Below, piece by piece: positions 260 to 10,302 of a stretch of 64,000 nucleotides of DNA. The stretch covers positions 1-64,000 of the forward strand of contig CANLXI010000019.1 of assembly GCA_947495035.1 (NCBI GenBank). Direction: 5' to 3'. The position numbers and the translations under genes are program-made. The first letter of the stretch is position 1. Every line of letters starts with the position of its first letter. The notes below the pieces were generated by a model. It did no database searches. It was not told the origin of the DNA and was given only the letters and a program-made list of their open reading frames with translations. The DNA comes from an uncultured Granulosicoccus sp. GTDB lineage: Bacteria; Pseudomonadota; Gammaproteobacteria; Granulosicoccales; Granulosicoccaceae.

Positions 260-288
260 TTGACACCTTTGAAACGCCTATTTATATT
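260..288 (+). promoter_or_regulatory. Sigma70 promoter of the Tct/DUF993 operon
   Basis: A consensus -35 box TTGACA (260-265) is separated by 17 bp from TATATT (283-288), an almost perfect -10 box. The first gene starts 42 bp downstream of the -10 box. From 86 to 259 I see no gene, only a short palindrome GCGAGC-AA-GCTCGC at 185-198. A promoter this strong is probably held down by a repressor, which fits the palindrome overlapping its -10 box. Confidence 0.8.
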
Positions 289-304
289 ACCTACTAGTTG
301 GTAA
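287..304. promoter_or_regulatory. 18-bp palindrome overlapping the -10 box, candidate TetR operator
   Basis: The sequence TTACCTACTAGTTGGTAA matches its own reverse complement at 16 of 18 positions, around a central ACTAGT. It begins in the last two bases of the -10 box and covers the expected transcription start, the classical place for a repressor. The operon encodes its own TetR-family protein at 3452-4087, the most likely ligand-controlled binder. Binding itself is inferred. Confidence 0.6.
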
Positions 305-329
305 CAAAAACAACGGGAAGGAGAAATCA

Positions 330-1346
330 ATGCAGTTCAAACACCTCATTGCAGCCTCAGTCACCACAGCCACGCTGCTGGCCGCAAGTACACCTGCCCT
401 GGCGGAATGGCAGCCGGATCGTCCCATCAACATCATCGTCCCCTGGTCAGCCGGTGGTTCCACCGATCAGGTCACCCGCGTCGTGGCGCCGCTTCTGGAA
501 GAAGGTCTGGGCACCAAGATCGTCATCGTCAACCAGCCAGGTGCCTCTGGTTCACAAGGCACCCAGGCAGCTCTCGATGCGCCACGCGACGGATACACCT
601 GGACAGCGAACGCGATTGCCAACAATGCCACCTACGCCATCACCGGCTTGGTCGAAAACACCTCCATCGATGATTATGAGATCTACCTGCACGTTGCCAA
701 TGTGCCCGTGGTCAGTGTCAATGCCGATGCTCCCTATCAGGATTTTGGTGAGTTGCTGGAAGCCATGAAGGGTGACGACGTTACCGTGGGTACCGCTGGC
801 GTCAACTCATCCGGCGGCATGGCTCTGGCAGCCATCAAGGAAGAAATAGAGGGGGAGCTGGGTGCCCGTATGGTCACTTATGACGGTGGCAACCCGGCCG
901 TCATGGCAGCTGCCAGTGGTGAAGTTGCCGTGACTACCCAGCTGGCTACCGAGCAGACGGAGATGATCCGTGCCGGCAAGTTACGCGCTCTGGCAGTCCT
1001 GTCAGACAAGCCGCTGGTGGTGGAAGGTATCGATCCGATCCCACCAGTTACCGACTGGCTGGCCGACATGCCGATCGCCGCAGACTATTTCGGGGTGTTC
1101 ATTCCCAAAGGTGCTCCGCAGGACGTGTATGACACGGTCGCAAAGGTATGGGAGGAGAACGTCATGGACTCCGAAGAGATGAAGACCTATGCCTCGGAGC
1201 GCGGTGCCGTATTTGCGCCAAGCCACGGTGAAGCAGCACGTGCCGTTGCCATGCCGGTAGTCATTGCAGAAGCCTGTGCCCGCGTCACGCGCGGCGAAGC
1301 CGTGGTCGATCCTTCCACGATCGGCATCGACTGCCCTGCCGAGTAA
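330..1346 (+). CDS. TctC-family periplasmic solute-binding protein
   Basis: This 338-residue protein is the extracytoplasmic receptor of a tripartite tricarboxylate transporter (TTT); it captures a carboxylated solute in the periplasm. A Sec signal peptide of about 25 residues ends at ALA, followed by the family start WQPDRPINIIVPWSAGGSTD. An AAGGAG ribosome site precedes the ATG. It is the first gene of the operon, with TctB 88 bp downstream. TctC homologues bind citrate, aromatic acids, sugar acids and other carboxylates, so the ligand cannot be read from sequence. Two C-terminal cysteines (near residues 317 and 335) could form a disulfide. Confidence 0.93.
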   Translation: MQFKHLIAASVTTATLLAASTPALAEWQPDRPINIIVPWSAGGSTDQVTRVVAPLLEEGLGTKIVIVNQPGASGSQGTQAALDAPRDGYTWTANAIANNATYAITGLVENTSIDDYEIYLHVANVPVVSVNADAPYQDFGELLEAMKGDDVTVGTAGVNSSGGMALAAIKEEIEGELGARMVTYDGGNPAVMAAASGEVAVTTQLATEQTEMIRAGKLRALAVLSDKPLVVEGIDPIPPVTDWLADMPIAADYFGVFIPKGAPQDVYDTVAKVWEENVMDSEEMKTYASERGAVFAPSHGEAARAVAMPVVIAEACARVTRGEAVVDPSTIGIDCPAE

Positions 1347-1434
1347 TTTCCACCAGCCCCCCGGAGTGCGGCCTCCAGGGCCGTACTCCGACATCACCTC
1401 GAGACCTGTCCCACACTCTCTGTCGATAGAAACC

Positions 1435-1923
1435 ATGTTCTCTGACCCAAGAACTGCCGATCGAATAACCGGACTGGTGCTGCTCATGCTGGGCATTGCC
1501 ATGCTGGTCGGCGGCTACACCATGGACCGCCTGGAGATACGTCAGATACATCCGGCCAGCATTCCGGGTCTGGTTCCCATGGGCCTTGGCGCCGCCATGA
1601 TCATCTGCTCCCTGCTGCTGATCCTGTCCGCCGGTGCAGGCAATGATCAGAAGAGCACGGCAGAACAGGGATCTTTCAAGAACCTCTTCATCAGCATCAT
1701 CCTGTGTATCGGCTATGCCATCGGTCTACTGGGAAAGATGCCTTTCGTTCTGGCTACCGGCATTTTCATCTTCGTGTTTTCCCTGTATTTCAGCTGGACA
1801 GCTGACAGTGGCAAGAACCACTCGACACCGAAACTCGTGATTCTGACGGCCCTGTTTGCCGCTGTGTTCTCAGGCGCCATCTCCCTGCTCTTCCAGTACG
1901 GATTTCTCGTGAGGTTACCCTGA
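1435..1923 (+). CDS. TctB-family small membrane subunit of TTT transporter
   Basis: This 162-residue integral membrane protein has about four hydrophobic segments, the usual layout of the small TctB subunit that pairs with TctA. The frame is open further upstream, but the ATG at 1435 (MFSDPRTADRI) gives the normal family length and leaves an 88-bp gap after tctC. Its stop codon shares one base with the tctA start (TGATG), which suggests translational coupling and equal production of the two membrane subunits. TctB is poorly conserved, so the call rests on length, hydrophobicity and its place between TctC and TctA. Confidence 0.88.
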   Translation: MFSDPRTADRITGLVLLMLGIAMLVGGYTMDRLEIRQIHPASIPGLVPMGLGAAMIICSLLLILSAGAGNDQKSTAEQGSFKNLFISIILCIGYAIGLLGKMPFVLATGIFIFVFSLYFSWTADSGKNHSTPKLVILTALFAAVFSGAISLLFQYGFLVRLP

Positions 1924-3455
1924 TGCAAGCGCTGCAATCACTGTTCGACGCGCTGTTCAACCTCCTCACGCCCATGTCCGTGTTCCACGTGATCTGGGCG
2001 AGCCTGCTCGGCATCTTTGTCGGAAGCCTGCCCGGACTCACGGCCACCATGGGTGTGGCCTTGCTGACCACACTCACCTACACACTGGATCGAGACGCCG
2101 CCATACTTGTATTGATCTGCATGTATGTGGGCGCCATATACGGTGGCTCGCGCAGCGCCATCCTGCTCAATATTCCAGGCACGCCTGCCAGTGCCGCAAC
2201 CTCGCTTGATGGCTACCCGCTCGCACAGAAAGGCCAGGCGGCCAATGCCATGGCGCTCGCAACTGCTGGATCTGCACTGGGAACACTGGTTGGCATCGTG
2301 CTGCTGGTGATGCTGGCACCGCCTCTGGCCGAAATTGCACTGGATTTCGGCTCCTTCGAATTCTTCTGGCTGGCTCTGTTCGGTATCGTCATATCGGGTC
2401 AGTTGACCGGCGGCGGTTCAGCGCTCAAGGGATATATAGCCGGGCTGCTGGGCTTGATGGTTGCCATGATCGGCAGCGAAGGCATTCATGCACATGTGCG
2501 CTTCAACCTCGGGCTGAGCGACCTGAACGGCGGTATCGCACTCATTCCGGCCATGGTCGGCGCCTTCGGCTTTGCCGAAGTGCTGACCGTGATGTGGCGT
2601 CCCAAGGGCGAAATGGTGGAAGCAAGCGCCAGATCTACCAGCGCCTTGCCCAGACTGATCGATCTGTGGCGCTACAAGTTCACGATCGTACGCTCCGGCG
2701 TCATCGGCACCATCGTCGGCATCATACCCGGAGTCGGTGAAGACATCGGCGCCTGGTCTTCCTACGCTGCCGCCAAGAAACTCAGCAAGGAACCCGAGAT
2801 GTATGGCAAGGGCTCCACCGAGGGTTTGACCGCAGCCGAGACCGGCAACAGCGCCGTGGTACCCGGCGCCCTGATACCGGCATTGACGCTGGCGGTACCC
2901 GGTTCAGCACCAGCCGCTGTGCTGATTGCAGCACTGTTCATTCATGGCATTCGTCCGGGTCCCATGATCATGATCGAGCAGCCCGACTTCATCTACAACA
3001 TTGCAGCCATGCTGATCCTGGCCACCATTGCAATAGCCGCTTTCGGTCTGTCCCTGACTCGGGTATTCATCAAGATACTCAAGGTACCTCGTGAACTGCT
3101 GATGCCGATCGTCTTCACACTCTGCGTCATCGGTCCCTATGCCCTGACCCAACGCGTGTTCGACATCTGGGTCATGCTGTTCTTCGGACTCGCCGGATTC
3201 ATTCTGCGACGCATGAACTACCCCATGGCGCCGCTGGTGCTGGGCATCATTCTGGGCACCTTGCTGGACAAGAGTCTGCGTCGTGGACTGACGCTCAGCA
3301 ATGGTGATCTGTCGCCATTCTTCACCCGTCCCATTTCTGCCACCTTCGCCATCATCATCGGCCTCTCCATTCTTCTCAGCATTCCTGCGGTCCGCCGCGC
3401 TCTGCTTCGCCTGCTGCCCGGCAAGCGGAATATCCCGATCCAGGATGAATCATGA
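1923..3455 (+). CDS. TctA-family large membrane subunit of TTT transporter
   Basis: This 510-residue protein has about eleven or twelve membrane segments and is the permease that moves the TctC-bound solute inwards, driven by an ion gradient. Family signatures are visible: GLTATMGVALLTTLTY near the N-terminus, the Gly-rich stretch GAIYGGSRSAILLNIPGTP, and in the middle AAETGNSAVVPGALIPALTL followed by VPGSAPAAV. The start overlaps the tctB stop and its stop overlaps the next start (ATGA). It is complete and of normal length. Confidence 0.95.
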   Translation: MQALQSLFDALFNLLTPMSVFHVIWASLLGIFVGSLPGLTATMGVALLTTLTYTLDRDAAILVLICMYVGAIYGGSRSAILLNIPGTPASAATSLDGYPLAQKGQAANAMALATAGSALGTLVGIVLLVMLAPPLAEIALDFGSFEFFWLALFGIVISGQLTGGGSALKGYIAGLLGLMVAMIGSEGIHAHVRFNLGLSDLNGGIALIPAMVGAFGFAEVLTVMWRPKGEMVEASARSTSALPRLIDLWRYKFTIVRSGVIGTIVGIIPGVGEDIGAWSSYAAAKKLSKEPEMYGKGSTEGLTAAETGNSAVVPGALIPALTLAVPGSAPAAVLIAALFIHGIRPGPMIMIEQPDFIYNIAAMLILATIAIAAFGLSLTRVFIKILKVPRELLMPIVFTLCVIGPYALTQRVFDIWVMLFFGLAGFILRRMNYPMAPLVLGIILGTLLDKSLRRGLTLSNGDLSPFFTRPISATFAIIIGLSILLSIPAVRRALLRLLPGKRNIPIQDES

Positions 3456-4087
3456 AAGCGAAAGCGAACACAGGACGACGCGACGCGGAACTCTCACGCC
3501 GCATGATTCTGGATGCGGCACTGGTCGAGTTCTCTGAGAAGGGTTTCTCGGGTGCTCGTATCGACACCATTGCGGCTGCTGCCGGTGTCTCCAAGCCCAT
3601 GATCTACAGCTACTATGGCGACAAGGATGACCTGTACGCCGCCGCTCTGCGCGAAGCCTATATCCAGATTCGAGCGGGAGAACAGGAACTGGACCTGCAG
3701 CACAAGTCCCCCGAAGAAGCCATACGTGCACTGGTGAGTTTCACACTGAATCACTTCAAGTCGAAGCCCTGGTTCATCTCCATGCTCAACACCGAGAACC
3801 TGCATCAGGGCACGACCATCAAGAAGATTCATGATGTCGGCGAGATCCAGTCGCGCCTGGTGCAGGAGCTCGAAGTCATTCTGAAACGTGGTCAGAGCGA
3901 TGGCATTTTCCGCCAGGGGATCGACCCGGTGGACCTGTATATCACCATCGCCTCTCTGTGCTACTTCCCCATTTCCAATGCGCACACGCTGCGCGTTGTG
4001 TTCAACAAACCGGTTGACGAAGACGACTGGCTGGAACAGCGCCGCCAGGACGCCGAGGACATGGTCATCCGCTTTCTACAACCCTGA
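3452..4087 (+). CDS. TetR/AcrR-family transcriptional regulator
   Basis: This 211-residue protein has an N-terminal TetR helix-turn-helix (about residues 15-60, including FSEKGFSGARIDTIAAAAG and SKPMIYSYYGDKDDLYAA), followed by a helical ligand-binding domain with the TetR_C_like layout. Its start overlaps the tctA stop (ATGA), so it lies inside the operon, between transporter and enzymes. By family precedent it represses its own operon until a substrate or intermediate binds. The palindrome at 287-304 is the best operator candidate. Its ligand is unknown. Confidence 0.9.
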   Translation: MKAKANTGRRDAELSRRMILDAALVEFSEKGFSGARIDTIAAAAGVSKPMIYSYYGDKDDLYAAALREAYIQIRAGEQELDLQHKSPEEAIRALVSFTLNHFKSKPWFISMLNTENLHQGTTIKKIHDVGEIQSRLVQELEVILKRGQSDGIFRQGIDPVDLYITIASLCYFPISNAHTLRVVFNKPVDEDDWLEQRRQDAEDMVIRFLQP

Positions 4088-4117
4088 ATTTCACTAAAGA
4101 CATCAGAGAACGACATC

Positions 4118-5269
4118 ATGACGCAGCAACGCATCGGTATCATCATGCACGGGGTCACCGGCCGCATGGGAATGAACCAGCATCTCATCCGCTCGGTACT
4201 GGCCATTCGAGATCAGGGTGGAGTATTACTCAGAGACGGCACTCGCCTGATGCCGGATCCGATCATCGTGGGACGCAACGAAGCCAAGATTGCCGAACTG
4301 GCCAAGGCGCATGGCGTGGAACGCTACACCACCGACATGGAAGCGGCCCTGGCCAATCCGGACGACACGGTATTCTTCGATGCCGCCTCCACTCAACTGC
4401 GCCCCGAACTGCTGCGACAGGCCATCGACGCCGGCAAGCACATCTACTGCGAGAAACCGATTTCCGAGAAACTCGAGCAGGCACTGGAGATTGCCAACTA
4501 CGCCAAGTCGAAAGGTGTCAAGAATGGCATCGTGCACGACAAGCTGGACCTGCCCGGTCTGCTGAAGCTCAAACGATTGCGAGACAGCGGTTTTTTCGGC
4601 AAGATCCTGTCGGTGCGCGGTGAGTTCGGTTACTGGGTATTCGAAGGCGACTGGATGCCGGCACAGCGACCCAGCTGGAACTACCGCGCAGCAGACGGTG
4701 GTGGCATCATCTCCGACATGCTGTGCCACTGGCGCTATGTTCTGGACAATGTCTTCGCACCGGTCAAGGCGGTGTCCTGCACCGGCGCTGTACACATTCC
4801 GGATCGCTGGGACGAAAACGGAGAACACTACAAGGCTGACGCCGATGATGCTGCCTATGCCACCTTCGAGCTGGAAGGCGGCATCATTGCCAATATCAAT
4901 TCGAGCTGGTGTGTGCGGGTACGTCGTGATGATCTCGTCACCTTTCAGGTTGACGGCACCCATGGTTCGGCCGTTGCCGGTCTGCACAGCTGCGTCAGTC
5001 AGCATCGCGTCAATACCCCCAAACCGGTCTGGAATCCGGATCAGCCGCAAACCATGAATTTCATGGAGGACTGGGAAGAAGTCCCTGACAATCATGATTT
5101 CGATAATGGTTTCAAGGTGCAGTGGGAACAGTTCCTCAGACATGTGGCCGAAGATGGCCCATGGAACTACACACTGATGGAAGGCGCGAAGGGTGTGCAG
5201 CTGGCCGAACTGGGACACCAGAGCTGGAAGGAGCGCCGCTGGATAGACATTCCGTCTCTGGAGGGCTGA
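4118..5269 (+). CDS. Gfo/Idh/MocA-family NAD(P)-dependent oxidoreductase
   Basis: This 383-residue protein has an N-terminal Rossmann fold (MHGVTGRMGMNQHLIRSV) and the family motif EKPIS (near residue 113), whose lysine acts in catalysis. The C-terminal alpha/beta domain follows. Members oxidise hydroxyl groups of sugars, inositols and sugar acids. It starts 30 bp after the TetR gene and is followed 3 bp later by the DUF993 gene, so it is a working enzyme of the operon. The start of the Rossmann motif is unusual for the family (HGVTGRMG rather than GxGxxG). The substrate is not predictable. Confidence 0.88.
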   Translation: MTQQRIGIIMHGVTGRMGMNQHLIRSVLAIRDQGGVLLRDGTRLMPDPIIVGRNEAKIAELAKAHGVERYTTDMEAALANPDDTVFFDAASTQLRPELLRQAIDAGKHIYCEKPISEKLEQALEIANYAKSKGVKNGIVHDKLDLPGLLKLKRLRDSGFFGKILSVRGEFGYWVFEGDWMPAQRPSWNYRAADGGGIISDMLCHWRYVLDNVFAPVKAVSCTGAVHIPDRWDENGEHYKADADDAAYATFELEGGIIANINSSWCVRVRRDDLVTFQVDGTHGSAVAGLHSCVSQHRVNTPKPVWNPDQPQTMNFMEDWEEVPDNHDFDNGFKVQWEQFLRHVAEDGPWNYTLMEGAKGVQLAELGHQSWKERRWIDIPSLEG

Positions 5270-5272
5270 AGC

Positions 5273-6442
5273 ATGTCGGTCACCATTCAACTACCTGTTG
5301 CCGATGGCTCGCTCGAGCGCATCACACTGCTTGCCGGTCCAGAACCGGCCGCAGCTGATGGCCAATGGAACCGTATCGGTTACGCAGCCGCCCACGTGGT
5401 CTGTGACCCACTGGCTGACAACGACCCCTGGATCGATACCGCTGTCGACTGGGATCGCACACTGGCGTACCGCGAATACCTGTGGAGTATCGGCCTGGGC
5501 GTGGCCGAGGCAATGGACACCGCACAACGTGGCATGGGGCTGAGCTGGGAAACCTCGCTGGAGCTGGTTCAGCGCAGTATGGAACTTGCCAATGCCGGCG
5601 GTCATCTGATCGCCAGCGGTGCCGGTACCGATCATCTGGAGATAACGCCGGATCTGACGCTCGATGATGTCATCGCCGCCTACGAAATGCAGTGCGAGGC
5701 CATTGAGGCCACCGGTAGCCGTGTCATCCTTATGGCATCCAGAGCACTGACAGCGGTAGCCTCGGGACCGGAGGACTATGCAAAGGTCTACGCACGTGTT
5801 CTCGGAGGCCTGAAGCAACCAGCCATCCTTCATTGGCTGGGTGAGATGTTCGACCCGGCCCTGAAAGGCTACTGGGGCTCTGACGATCACATGACAGCGA
5901 TGGGCACTTGCCTTGAGATCCTCAAGGACAATGCTGACAATATCGATGGAATCAAGATTTCCCTGCTGTCGGCTGACAAGGAAATCCACATGCGCAATCG
6001 CCTGCCGGAAGGCGTGAAGATGTACACCGGCGATGACTTCAACTACCCCGACCTCATTCAGGGTGATGAAGACGGTTTTTCCCATGCCTTGCTGGGTATA
6101 TTCGATCCCATCGCAGGGGCAGCGGCCAGAGCGCTGTCGGCTCTGGGTGCCGGAGATAACGCTGCATACCGACAAGCCTTCGATCCAACCGTGCCGCTGT
6201 CACGCCATATCTTCAAGGCACCGACCCGATACTACAAGACCGGTGTTGTCTTCATGGCCTATCTGAACGGTCATCAGAACCATTTCACCATGGTCGGTGG
6301 GCAGGAGAGCACGCGTTCCACCCTGCACCTGGCCGAACTCATGCGTCTGGCCAACGATGCGCAGCTGTTTACCGATCCGCAAGAGGCCGCACGTCGAGCC
6401 AGTGCGGTATTCTCCGCTCGTGGTGTGGAGATACTTGCATGA
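5273..6442 (+). CDS. DUF993 protein, dihydrodipicolinate-synthase-like TIM barrel
   Basis: This 389-residue protein belongs to the DUF993 group, distantly related to class I aldolases of the DapA/NAL superfamily. The stretch DGIKIS carries Lys228, placed where DapA-type enzymes have their Schiff-base lysine; this assignment is inferred from position. An aldol cleavage or dehydration of a keto-acid is the likely chemistry, but I know of no proven reaction. A GGAGGGC ribosome site lies in the end of the preceding gene. The stop overlaps the next start (ATGA). It is probably co-expressed with the oxidoreductase and isomerase as a pathway. Confidence 0.8.
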   Translation: MSVTIQLPVADGSLERITLLAGPEPAAADGQWNRIGYAAAHVVCDPLADNDPWIDTAVDWDRTLAYREYLWSIGLGVAEAMDTAQRGMGLSWETSLELVQRSMELANAGGHLIASGAGTDHLEITPDLTLDDVIAAYEMQCEAIEATGSRVILMASRALTAVASGPEDYAKVYARVLGGLKQPAILHWLGEMFDPALKGYWGSDDHMTAMGTCLEILKDNADNIDGIKISLLSADKEIHMRNRLPEGVKMYTGDDFNYPDLIQGDEDGFSHALLGIFDPIAGAAARALSALGAGDNAAYRQAFDPTVPLSRHIFKAPTRYYKTGVVFMAYLNGHQNHFTMVGGQESTRSTLHLAELMRLANDAQLFTDPQEAARRASAVFSARGVEILA

Positions 6443-7257
6443 TCACACCAGAGAAGCTGTCGCTGAACACGGCCACTGTCAGCAAGCAGTGGAATCTGCA
6501 GCAAGCGGTGGAAGGCTGTCTGCGACATGGTATCGGCGGCATTGCACCCTGGCGGGACAAACTGCACGAAGCCGGGGTCAGTCAGGGTGCTCGCATGATT
6601 CGCGAGTCGGGATTGGCCGTATCAGGACTCTGCCGGGGTGGCTGGTACACCGCCGAAGGCGCACTGACGCAGTCGGTCATCGATGACAACAAGGCAGCGG
6701 TGGATGAAGCCGTAGCCATCGGTGCCGCCTGCCTTGTAATGGTCGTCGGTGGCCTTGCGCCCGGCTCTCGTGATCTCATTGGCGCTCGCCAGATTGTCAC
6801 CGAAGGCCTGGGCAAGACGCTTGAGTACGCCCGCACGGTCAATATGCCCATTGCCATCGAACCGCTGCACCCGATGTATGCCGCGGATCGTGCCTGCGTG
6901 AATACCACCGGCCAGGCGCTGGATATCTGTGACGAACTCGGAGATGGTATCGGTGTGGCGCTGGACGTCTATCACATCTGGTGGGATCCGGATATTCGTG
7001 CGCAGATTCAGCGCGCCGGCAAGGAACGCTTGCTCGCCTTTCACATCTGTGACTGGTTATCTCCGACCAGCGACATGCTGACAGACCGCGGCATGATGGG
7101 TGATGGTGTCATCGACATCAGACACTATCGAGCCATGGTCGAGCATCAGGGCTTCAACGGGCTCAATGAGGTCGAGATCTTTTCGGCTGAAAACTGGTGG
7201 AAGCGCGATCCGGATGAAGTACTGCAGGAAATGATCAGCCGCGCTCGAGAGTGCTGA
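6439..7257 (+). CDS. Sugar phosphate isomerase/epimerase (AP-endonuclease-2-like TIM barrel)
   Basis: This 272-residue protein has the xylose-isomerase-like TIM-barrel fold. Metal-site motifs are visible: IEPLHP (Glu near residue 140), ALDVYHIWWDPD, FHICDW and NEVEIFS. Such proteins isomerise, epimerise or dehydrate keto-sugars and often sit beside Gfo/Idh/MocA enzymes. The ATGA overlap with the DUF993 gene indicates coupled translation. It is the last gene of the seven-gene operon. The exact reaction is unknown. Confidence 0.85.
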   Translation: MITPEKLSLNTATVSKQWNLQQAVEGCLRHGIGGIAPWRDKLHEAGVSQGARMIRESGLAVSGLCRGGWYTAEGALTQSVIDDNKAAVDEAVAIGAACLVMVVGGLAPGSRDLIGARQIVTEGLGKTLEYARTVNMPIAIEPLHPMYAADRACVNTTGQALDICDELGDGIGVALDVYHIWWDPDIRAQIQRAGKERLLAFHICDWLSPTSDMLTDRGMMGDGVIDIRHYRAMVEHQGFNGLNEVEIFSAENWWKRDPDEVLQEMISRAREC

Positions 7258-7478: not shown

Positions 7479-8516
7479 TCAGCCGACTGTCTCCGGCGTG
7501 ACATCCACCTGCTTGCCTTGCTGCGATGAAGCGACCAGCGCATCGATCAGATGATGCACCCGCAGACCCTCACGACCACTGATGCGTGGTTGTGTTCCAG
7601 ACCGGATGCTGTCAACGAAATCCTCGATGAGGTCGCGATGCCAGTCGCAAGGGAAAGCCATGGGGTCCGCACCACCACCTGTCCCCGTGGTCTCTCCGAG
7701 CTCTTCACTGCTGCCATCCCGGTAATGCACGAGCAATCGACCCGCTTCCAGCGTGGCACTGCCATTTGTACCGTCGATACTGAGTGTCTCCGCCCCACCG
7801 GGATAAGCCGCCGTCGTTGCGACAATGGAGCCCACGGCACCTGACGCAAAACGCACACAACCCGCAGCAAAATCCTCGGCCTCGAGTGTGTGCAGCGGCG
7901 TCGTGGCGCACATCGCCTGCACCGAGCTGGCAGGCCCTGTCAGACTCAGCATCAGATCCATGACATGAATGGCCTGACTGATCAGGACACCACCGCCGTC
8001 TCGTGCATAACTGCCGCGCCCGGGAACATCGTAATAGGACTGCTCGCGCCACCAGGGAACCTGTACCCTCACGCTGGCGATATCACCCAGCAAGCCTTCT
8101 CGCATGATGGTTGTCAAACGTTGTGCGCCCACTCGAAAGCGATGCTGGAACACCACGCCGAATTTCACGCCGGCGGCTTCGCAGGTTTCAACCAGAGCCG
8201 TCGCCTGCTCACTGCTGCGCTCGATGGGCTTTTCCGTCAGGATGTGCTTTCCGGCGGCAGCAAAAGTTCTGACCAGATCTTCCCGTTGATCTGGTGGCGT
8301 TACCAGAATGACAGCTTCAACCGACGCATCTGCAGCAATGGCGTCGATGGTATCGAATGCTGTTACACCGTAGGCCTCGGCAACCTCCAGCGCCCGTGGC
8401 TGACTGCGATTGTATACCCCGGCCAGATCCACCTTTCCCGTGAGCTGTTTGAGAGCTTCCAGATGTGGCTTTGACGCCATGCCAAGGCCAATCAGTGCAA
8501 CGCGTGTACCTGTCAA
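7479..8516 (-). CDS. Second Gfo/Idh/MocA-family oxidoreductase
   Basis: This 345-residue NAD(P)-dependent dehydrogenase begins with a Rossmann motif ([12 protein letters not shown]) and has the catalytic TEKPIE motif near residue 96, then the C-terminal substrate domain. The start is TTG, supported by GGAG seven bases upstream and by the Rossmann strand beginning immediately after. The next in-frame ATG would remove part of that fold. It converges on the Tct operon and is only distantly similar to the first Gfo/Idh/MocA protein there. It could take part in the same sugar pathway, but shared regulation is not shown. Confidence 0.87.
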
Positions 8517-10173: not shown

Positions 10174-10200
10174 GCACCAACGCCGAACAATCATCCTGTG

Positions 10201-10302
10201 CACCAGCACCAGCACCAGCACCAGCACCAGCATCGGCATCGGCATCGGCATCGGCATCGGCACCGACATCGGCACCGACATCGACACTGGTACTAGCACC
10301 GG
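10201..10302. repeat. Hexamer tandem repeat array with two main unit types
   Basis: Seventeen consecutive 6-bp units: five CACCAG, then five CATCGG, then CACCGA, CATCGG, CACCGA, CATCGA and three degenerate units. Each type is perfect within its block. The array lies in the 215-bp gap between the ends of two convergent genes (thioesterase and DMT transporter). A minus-strand frame through it gives only Val-Leu and Met-Pro dipeptide runs and does not look like a real protein. I see nothing else between 10303 and 10388. Confidence 0.93.

Follow-up and report, generated by a model that had tools for sequence, protein, structure and literature searches.

A seven-gene operon of an uncultured Granulosicoccus species joining a carboxylate-type transporter to a conserved enzyme cassette that contains DUF993

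Gene content and proposed control of the operon

When examining a 64,000-nucleotide stretch of contig CANLXI010000019.1 (C19) from an uncultured Granulosicoccus species, hereafter the window, we found seven genes, all on the forward strand, that encode a tripartite tricarboxylate transporter (TTT), a TetR-family regulator and three enzymes, namely, a Gfo/Idh/MocA oxidoreductase (the Gfo protein), a DUF993 protein and a xylose-isomerase-like protein (the isomerase). The encoded proteins were scored against Pfam and NCBIfam, with matches listed at E 0.001. The features are as follows.

260-288, forward strand: sigma-70-like promoter, with TTGACA at 260-265, a 17-nt spacer and TATATT at 283-288 (11 of 12 consensus matches)
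287-304, no strand: 18-bp palindrome TTACCTACTAGTTGGTAA that overlaps the -10 box, a likely operator for the TetR protein of the operon
330-1346, forward strand: TctC, periplasmic binding protein of the TTT (PF03401, 63.2 bits, cut-off 27)
1435-1923, forward strand: TctB, small membrane subunit of the TTT (PF07331, 56.8 bits, cut-off 29.1; taken as 1429-1923 in the Pfam scan)
1923-3455, forward strand: TctA, large membrane subunit of the TTT (PF01970, 454.3 bits, cut-off 28.9)
3452-4087, forward strand: TetR-family regulator (PF00440, TetR_N, and PF17938, TetR_C_29)
4118-5269, forward strand: Gfo/Idh/MocA oxidoreductase of the 3OQB subfamily (PF01408, PF22725, PF02894)
5273-6442, forward strand: DUF993 protein (PF06187, 587 bits)
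6439-7257, forward strand: xylose-isomerase-like TIM barrel protein of the 3JU2/3QC0 subfamily (PF01261)

The open reading frames, the Pfam matches and the sequence itself bear out the order TctC-TctB-TctA-TetR-Gfo/Idh/MocA-DUF993-isomerase and the tight coupling that a preliminary description of this DNA had claimed for a seven-gene operon. The TctB and TctA genes are joined by TGATG, the TctA/TetR and DUF993/isomerase junctions are both ATGA, and gaps of 30 bp and 3 bp separate TetR from Gfo and Gfo from DUF993, respectively; in addition, there is a gap of 88 bp between TctC and TctB that the preliminary description did not list. There is good support for the seven genes being one unit. The three transporter proteins all score above the Pfam cut-offs, so that the TTT is complete by gene content and probably serves as the importer of a carboxylated compound. 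For the TetR protein, the best NCBIfam match is RutR, at 63.3 bits, far under the cut-off of 368.

The start of the unit at 260, as previously delimited, is the -35 box of the sigma-70-like promoter. The promoter scan yielded three such sites compared with 3.1 in shuffled sequences, so the promoter alone is weak evidence. The pattern TTACCNACTAGTNGGTAA, which was derived from the palindrome itself, occurs once in the window with up to three mismatches, against 0.02 expected occurrences. In the collected loci, which total 1,993,068 bases, TTACNNACTAGTNNGTAA was matched 13 times at up to two mismatches, once at the site in the window and 12 times in relatives; nine of these 12 hits (in loci L002, L003, L007 and L008 with two each, L050, L083 and L091) are located within approximately 120 bp upstream of a TctC or Gfo gene, which suggests that, in close relatives, transport and enzymes belong to one regulon. 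The remaining three hits are in L067, upstream of an aldehyde dehydrogenase gene in L082 and upstream of a CoA-transferase gene in L086. Several observations weigh against a specific operator. The reversed-sequence control for TTACNNACTAGTNNGTAA produced four hits compared with the 12 in relatives, and the host genome contains a single exact palindrome (287-304) along with three more places at three mismatches, that is, four in all, compared with 27 matches per strand for the reversed pattern, so that the loose matches are noise; furthermore, at up to three mismatches, the operator was not found at the second TTT operon of the host, described below. Taken together, the promoter and the recurring palindrome suggest a single regulated unit.

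Conservation of the cassette and its changing partners

A scan of species genomes detected at least 583 related stretches, of which the best 80 were analysed, a selection that favours close relatives and contains many Bradyrhizobium loci. Using the window proteins as tblastn queries, we identified Gfo in 75 of these loci, DUF993 in all 80 and the isomerase in 76; 73 loci contain all three genes, without exception in the order Gfo, DUF993, isomerase and on one strand, the gaps between matches are below 350 bp in 66 of the 80, and some of the missing partners reflect loci cut by contig ends (L047 and L048, for example). In 299 genomes sampled evenly across the phylum, with Gfo counted at E values up to 1e-60 and the isomerase at 1e-35, DUF993 was present in 24 genomes and each of the other two in 13, and these were the identical 13 genomes, all within the DUF993-positive 24. 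The hypergeometric probabilities, to be read as a guide only since the genomes are related, were 1.3e-16 for DUF993 with Gfo and 5.3e-23 for Gfo with the isomerase by genome, and 2.8e-8 and 6.0e-11, respectively, by genus. The enzyme triad is a real cassette, beyond chance, and DUF993 travels with this Gfo and isomerase subfamily.

It is extremely improbable, then, that the seven genes are chance neighbours that do not share a pathway. The transporters indeed differ among relatives, and 11 of the 24 DUF993 genomes lack both partners nearby, but the genes overlap, operator-like sites lie upstream of TctC and Gfo in relatives, the phyletic patterns of Gfo and the isomerase coincide, and the gene order is the same in the 73 loci, albeit in a set biased to close relatives. 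The claim of one unit for uptake and catabolism stands on the overlapping genes, the conserved enzyme order and the operator-like sites.

The surroundings of the cassette are far more fluid. Gene calling recovered the DUF993 gene in 75 of the 80 loci, that of the isomerase in 71 and that of Gfo in 69, and it found no genes at all in L012, L058 and L073; because known genes are missed, the cluster counts that depend on it are lower bounds. Both TctC and TctA at 50% identity or more are encoded in 17 of the 80 loci, and other relatives carry NMT1-type ABC, sugar ABC or MFS transporters at the cassette in place of the TTT, so the TTT is not a steady partner of DUF993. An enolase-superfamily gene was detected in at least 43 of the 80 loci and a ketose-3-epimerase-like gene in at least 13. 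Accordingly, of the 'full set' of genes proposed for the operon, the transporter, the regulator and the three enzymes are all in place, but they may not suffice on their own: an enolase-superfamily gene is often present in related loci and a ketose-3-epimerase-like gene in some, and the host carries both kinds in a second TTT operon (see below).

In the 11 DUF993-positive genomes mentioned above, neither Gfo nor the isomerase was detected within about 6 kb on each side of DUF993 (tblastn, E 1e-12). Near DUF993, six of these genomes encode a CoA-transferase and an enoyl-CoA hydratase together with a distant aldehyde dehydrogenase, and the other five encode a distant GMC oxidoreductase and a short-chain dehydrogenase/reductase (SDR), in three cases with glycerate kinase. 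Hence the pairing with Gfo and the isomerase marks this subgroup only, and, as a point against a fixed three-enzyme pathway, the two partners would be needless for some DUF993 reactions. The preliminary description had named DUF993 homologues that never accompany these partners as grounds for abandoning its proposal; the sample is split, with 13 genomes having both. The proposal of a catabolic pathway holds in outline for this DUF993 subgroup.

Among 21 annotated plasmid loci, eight encode a '3-ketoacyl-ACP reductase' (an SDR) and no such Gfo, and seven of the eight also encode an acyl-CoA dehydrogenase. Glycerate kinase is found near DUF993 in 10 of the 21 plasmid loci and in three of the 11 further genomes. 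Phylogenetic analysis of 76 DUF993 sequences by a quick method, after exclusion of 18 Bradyrhizobium-type loci that were nearly identical and of sequences with atypical lengths, with context labels that we assigned from locus gene content and with a long-branch warning for L105 and L106, placed the eight SDR-type plasmid loci in one clade (SH-aLRT 99) and required 11 changes of the TTT label. Since the dehydrogenase and the transporter vary, with oxidoreductases and often glycerate kinase recurring, DUF993 apparently changes partners. The window protein belongs to a group of 12 sequences, nine of them labelled TTT and the named members alphaproteobacterial (SH-aLRT 99); in the host's own class, only two other sampled genomes have DUF993, and horizontal transfer into the host is plausible. 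DUF993 is likewise found in Bacillota (L038, L058, L073), in Thermosporothrix (L061) and on actinobacterial plasmids (L105, L106).

DUF2264 proteins are encoded beside DUF993 clusters with sugar ABC transporters in L065 (14367-16226, reverse strand) and L106 (6652-8643, reverse strand). We take DUF2264 to be a glucuronidase family, for which no support was found in the open-licence PMC literature, and these neighbours may hint at a glycosidic substrate.

One of the closest known systems is the sugar cluster of plasmid pAO1 from Paenarthrobacter nicotinovorans, which is reportedly linked to oxidative xylose use. As in the window, Gfo (59% identity) adjoins DUF993 (49%), whereas no match to the isomerase or the TTT was found in the stretch of this locus. 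At 8838-12382 of L105, Gfo, DUF993 and glycerate kinase are encoded back to back, adjoined by AldH and a GMC oxidoreductase; a sugar ABC transporter is also among the cluster's own genes. Passages of PMC10494377 and PMC6214936 yielded no function.

The three enzymes and a candidate pathway

The Gfo protein contains an N-terminal Rossmann domain and a C-terminal domain along with the EKP and DxxxH motifs, which we take to be the family motifs of Gfo/Idh/MocA; E112, K113, P114, D200 and H204 are invariant in 17 aligned sequences. Its one solved relative of near-identical length, 3OQB, is matched nearly over the full length (608.7 bits, E 3.6e-182) and is labelled just 'oxidoreductase'. A second Gfo/Idh/MocA gene is located at 7479-8516 on the reverse strand, convergent with the operon, and is 44% identical to a gene near the Roseibium DUF993 locus (L050).

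In the isomerase, E141, D176 and E246 are present in all 23 aligned sequences and H202 in at least 90%. A profile comparison of the hhalign type paired the first three with E152, D185 and E249 of a ketose-3-epimerase-like paralogue (E 2e-12), and H202, for which hhalign gave no pairing, was placed by motif only. These four are probably the metal-site residues, with the E-D-H-E roles that we assume by analogy with the ketose 3-epimerases. The subfamily includes 3JU2 (SMc04130, 'uncharacterized protein'), 3QC0 ('sugar isomerase') and 7VPF ('xylose isomerase'), at E values of 5.5e-106, 6e-106 and 1.6e-72, respectively. In the open-licence PMC literature, no paper was found on the activity of these three proteins and, by PDB code, no relevant paper on the function of 4DNH (see below), 3OQB, 3JU2 or 3QC0.

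The weaker matches of both proteins bear on two alternative pathways. It is rather unlikely that the operon performs oxidative deglycosylation, akin to the levoglucosan, 3-keto-disaccharide or C-glycoside pathways, in which the Gfo protein would oxidise C3 of an acidic glycoside, the TIM barrel enzyme would eliminate or hydrate at the glycosidic bond, and DUF993 would act on the released keto sugar or aglycone. The best NCBIfam match of the Gfo protein is levoglucosan dehydrogenase, its weaker PDB matches include DgpA (7XR9, E 2.9e-9), and sugar ABC transporters and DUF2264 proteins occur in some relatives; however, the levoglucosan dehydrogenase score is 66.4 bits compared with an equivalog cut-off of 650, the matches listed for the Gfo protein at E 0.001 do not include the 3-keto-disaccharide family (BT_2159), and the sole NCBIfam match of the isomerase at that threshold is IolO, the 5-keto-L-gluconate epimerase (25 bits, cut-off 300), with neither hydroxypyruvate isomerase nor psicose epimerase listed. 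A cyclitol-type pathway, with the Gfo protein resembling inositol dehydrogenase or MocA and the TIM barrel enzyme resembling IolI or MocC, both acting on an inosose-like carbocycle, is quite improbable. The Gfo protein does match IolG (inositol 2-dehydrogenase), and the isomerase matches IolI in the PDB (1i60, E 2.8e-7), but the IolG score of 62.9 bits falls below the equivalog cut-off of 355, and a carboxylate transporter would be odd for a neutral cyclitol.

The DUF993 protein is predicted, from a structural model, to adopt the fold of dihydrodipicolinate synthase (DHDPS) and N-acetylneuraminate lyase (NAL); a 61% identical protein, 4DNH, has a solved structure. K228 is invariant, lies on strand 224-230 of the model and was paired with the Schiff-base lysine of the DHDPS superfamily in two profile comparisons; this lysine is presumably that of the sixth barrel strand in DHDPS/NAL class I aldolases. 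The resemblance is incomplete, and this counts against a conventional aldolase. The hhalign probabilities are moderate (74.8 and 48.4%), with weaker support from a second, larger DUF993 profile; in the alignment, EAMDT, next to a gap, faces GTTGE of DHDPS, and the invariant H187 faces the YNIP tyrosine, and because these active-site motifs are changed, the chemistry may differ from that of pyruvate-type aldolases. Compared with the DHDPS/NAL superfamily (PF00701), DUF993 lacks GTTGE and the YNIP tyrosine and is about 95 residues longer; no PF00701 match was reported for it at E 0.001, and PF06187 is its sole Pfam family. The aldolase-like role formerly ascribed to DUF993 fits the fold and the invariant lysine. 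We found no reaction described for DUF993: 'DUF993' and 'PF06187' are absent from the open-licence PMC literature, which does not imply absence in print elsewhere.

The structure entry for 4DNH, which is SMc04132, a hypothetical DUF993 protein of Sinorhizobium meliloti 1021, names no function. One paper tabulates SMc04132, SMc04133, SMc04135, SMc04138 and SMc04139, and another treats SMc04134 as a transcription factor. A close DUF993 locus in S. meliloti Ak57 (L084) contains a sugar ABC transporter and a mandelate-racemase-type gene, with no TTT in the stretch shown.

The host possesses a second TTT operon, on contig C67 (L128, 292-8704), with TetR, NAD-epimerase-type, DHDPS-like, ketose-3-epimerase-like and enolase-superfamily genes that are homologous to modules adjoining DUF993 in other genomes. 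For the enolase-type model, Foldseek and a second aligner ranked different enolase-superfamily entries first. This operon probably acts on a related substrate or supplies the ring-opening portion of the same pathway.

Our preferred reading, to which we assign slightly less than an even chance, is an inducible operon that takes up a polyhydroxy carboxylic acid (a sugar acid, possibly cyclic or glycosidic) and degrades it by oxidation, metal-dependent isomerisation and cleavage of a C-C bond through a Schiff base; what the three reactions are, and in which order they run, is deduced from family membership and conserved residues. In the absence of substrate, the TetR protein would occupy the palindrome at 287-304 and block the promoter. 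As expected from their families, TctC would capture the acid in the periplasm, and TctA and TctB would import it. The Gfo protein, given its family and conserved catalytic motifs, would convert a secondary hydroxyl to a ketone with NAD(P)+, and the TIM barrel enzyme, judging by its metal-site residues, would isomerise or epimerise the carbon adjacent to the carbonyl. DUF993, considering its fold, lysine and neighbours, would then form a Schiff base between K228 and the ketone, followed by retro-aldol cleavage of a C-C bond. One of the products is probably a three-carbon compound (glyceraldehyde, hydroxypyruvate or tartronate semialdehyde), which would be channelled into metabolism as glycerate, as hinted by the recurrence of glycerate kinase near DUF993 in relatives. 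Against this last step, the operon has no glycerate kinase, nor do 11 of the 21 plasmid loci, the gene tables of which are incomplete.

DUF993 could instead use the Schiff base for dehydration or decarboxylation, in the manner of KdgD or keto-deoxy-pentonate dehydratase, a possibility that we regard as distinctly unlikely. The DHDPS/NAL fold, itself taken here from a model, presumably hosts both chemistries, but the glycerate kinase that recurs near DUF993 fits three-carbon cleavage better, without proving it. Carrying the preferred C-C lyase reading further, we put forward as a doubtful but conceivable extension that the DUF993 proteins make up a previously unrecognised family of class I lyases, which combine the DHDPS lysine with a different pocket (EAMDTAQR, HWLG, YTGDDFNY) for a keto sugar acid, not pyruvate. 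Such a lyase would provide the cleavage reaction common to several bacterial pathways, where Gfo/Idh/MocA, SDR or CoA-linked systems generate the ketone and glycerate kinase receives the three-carbon product, with the pathway in the host split over two paralogous TTT operons.

The operon combines ordinary protein families in a pathway that is strongly conserved and for which no assigned function was found; new here are the fold and lysine of DUF993, the C67 operon, and the variable partners with recurrent glycerate kinase. DUF993 is widespread, as the scan indicates, structures have been solved for it and for both partner enzymes, and an answer would give a function to many genes named 'dihydrodipicolinate synthase family protein'. 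With a binding protein, a regulator and a predicted catalytic lysine in one clear set of genes, the function of DUF993 lends itself to direct testing in a laboratory strain, for instance S. meliloti 1021.

Other features of the window and contig ends

Contig C19 starts with a perfect 8-bp tandem repeat, CTGCCTGA, in 10.6 copies (1-85). Contig C79, 3747 bp long, has this repeat at its right end (matches at 3668-3747), so the two contigs may join there. As a candidate source of missing pathway genes, C79 was rejected: nothing pathway-like was seen on it, and the one open reading frame scanned with Pfam is a transglutaminase. Short tandem repeats with 6-bp and 12-bp periods occupy 10200-10287, in a stretch where the listed open reading frames of at least 90 amino acids are all on the reverse strand. 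Between 10979 and 17069, genes that all run in one direction encode a GntR/FCD regulator, a Cys/Met-metabolism pyridoxal phosphate enzyme and a sugar-type ABC transporter, of which the binding protein and the ATPase were identified by Pfam and two permease-like open reading frames by eye.

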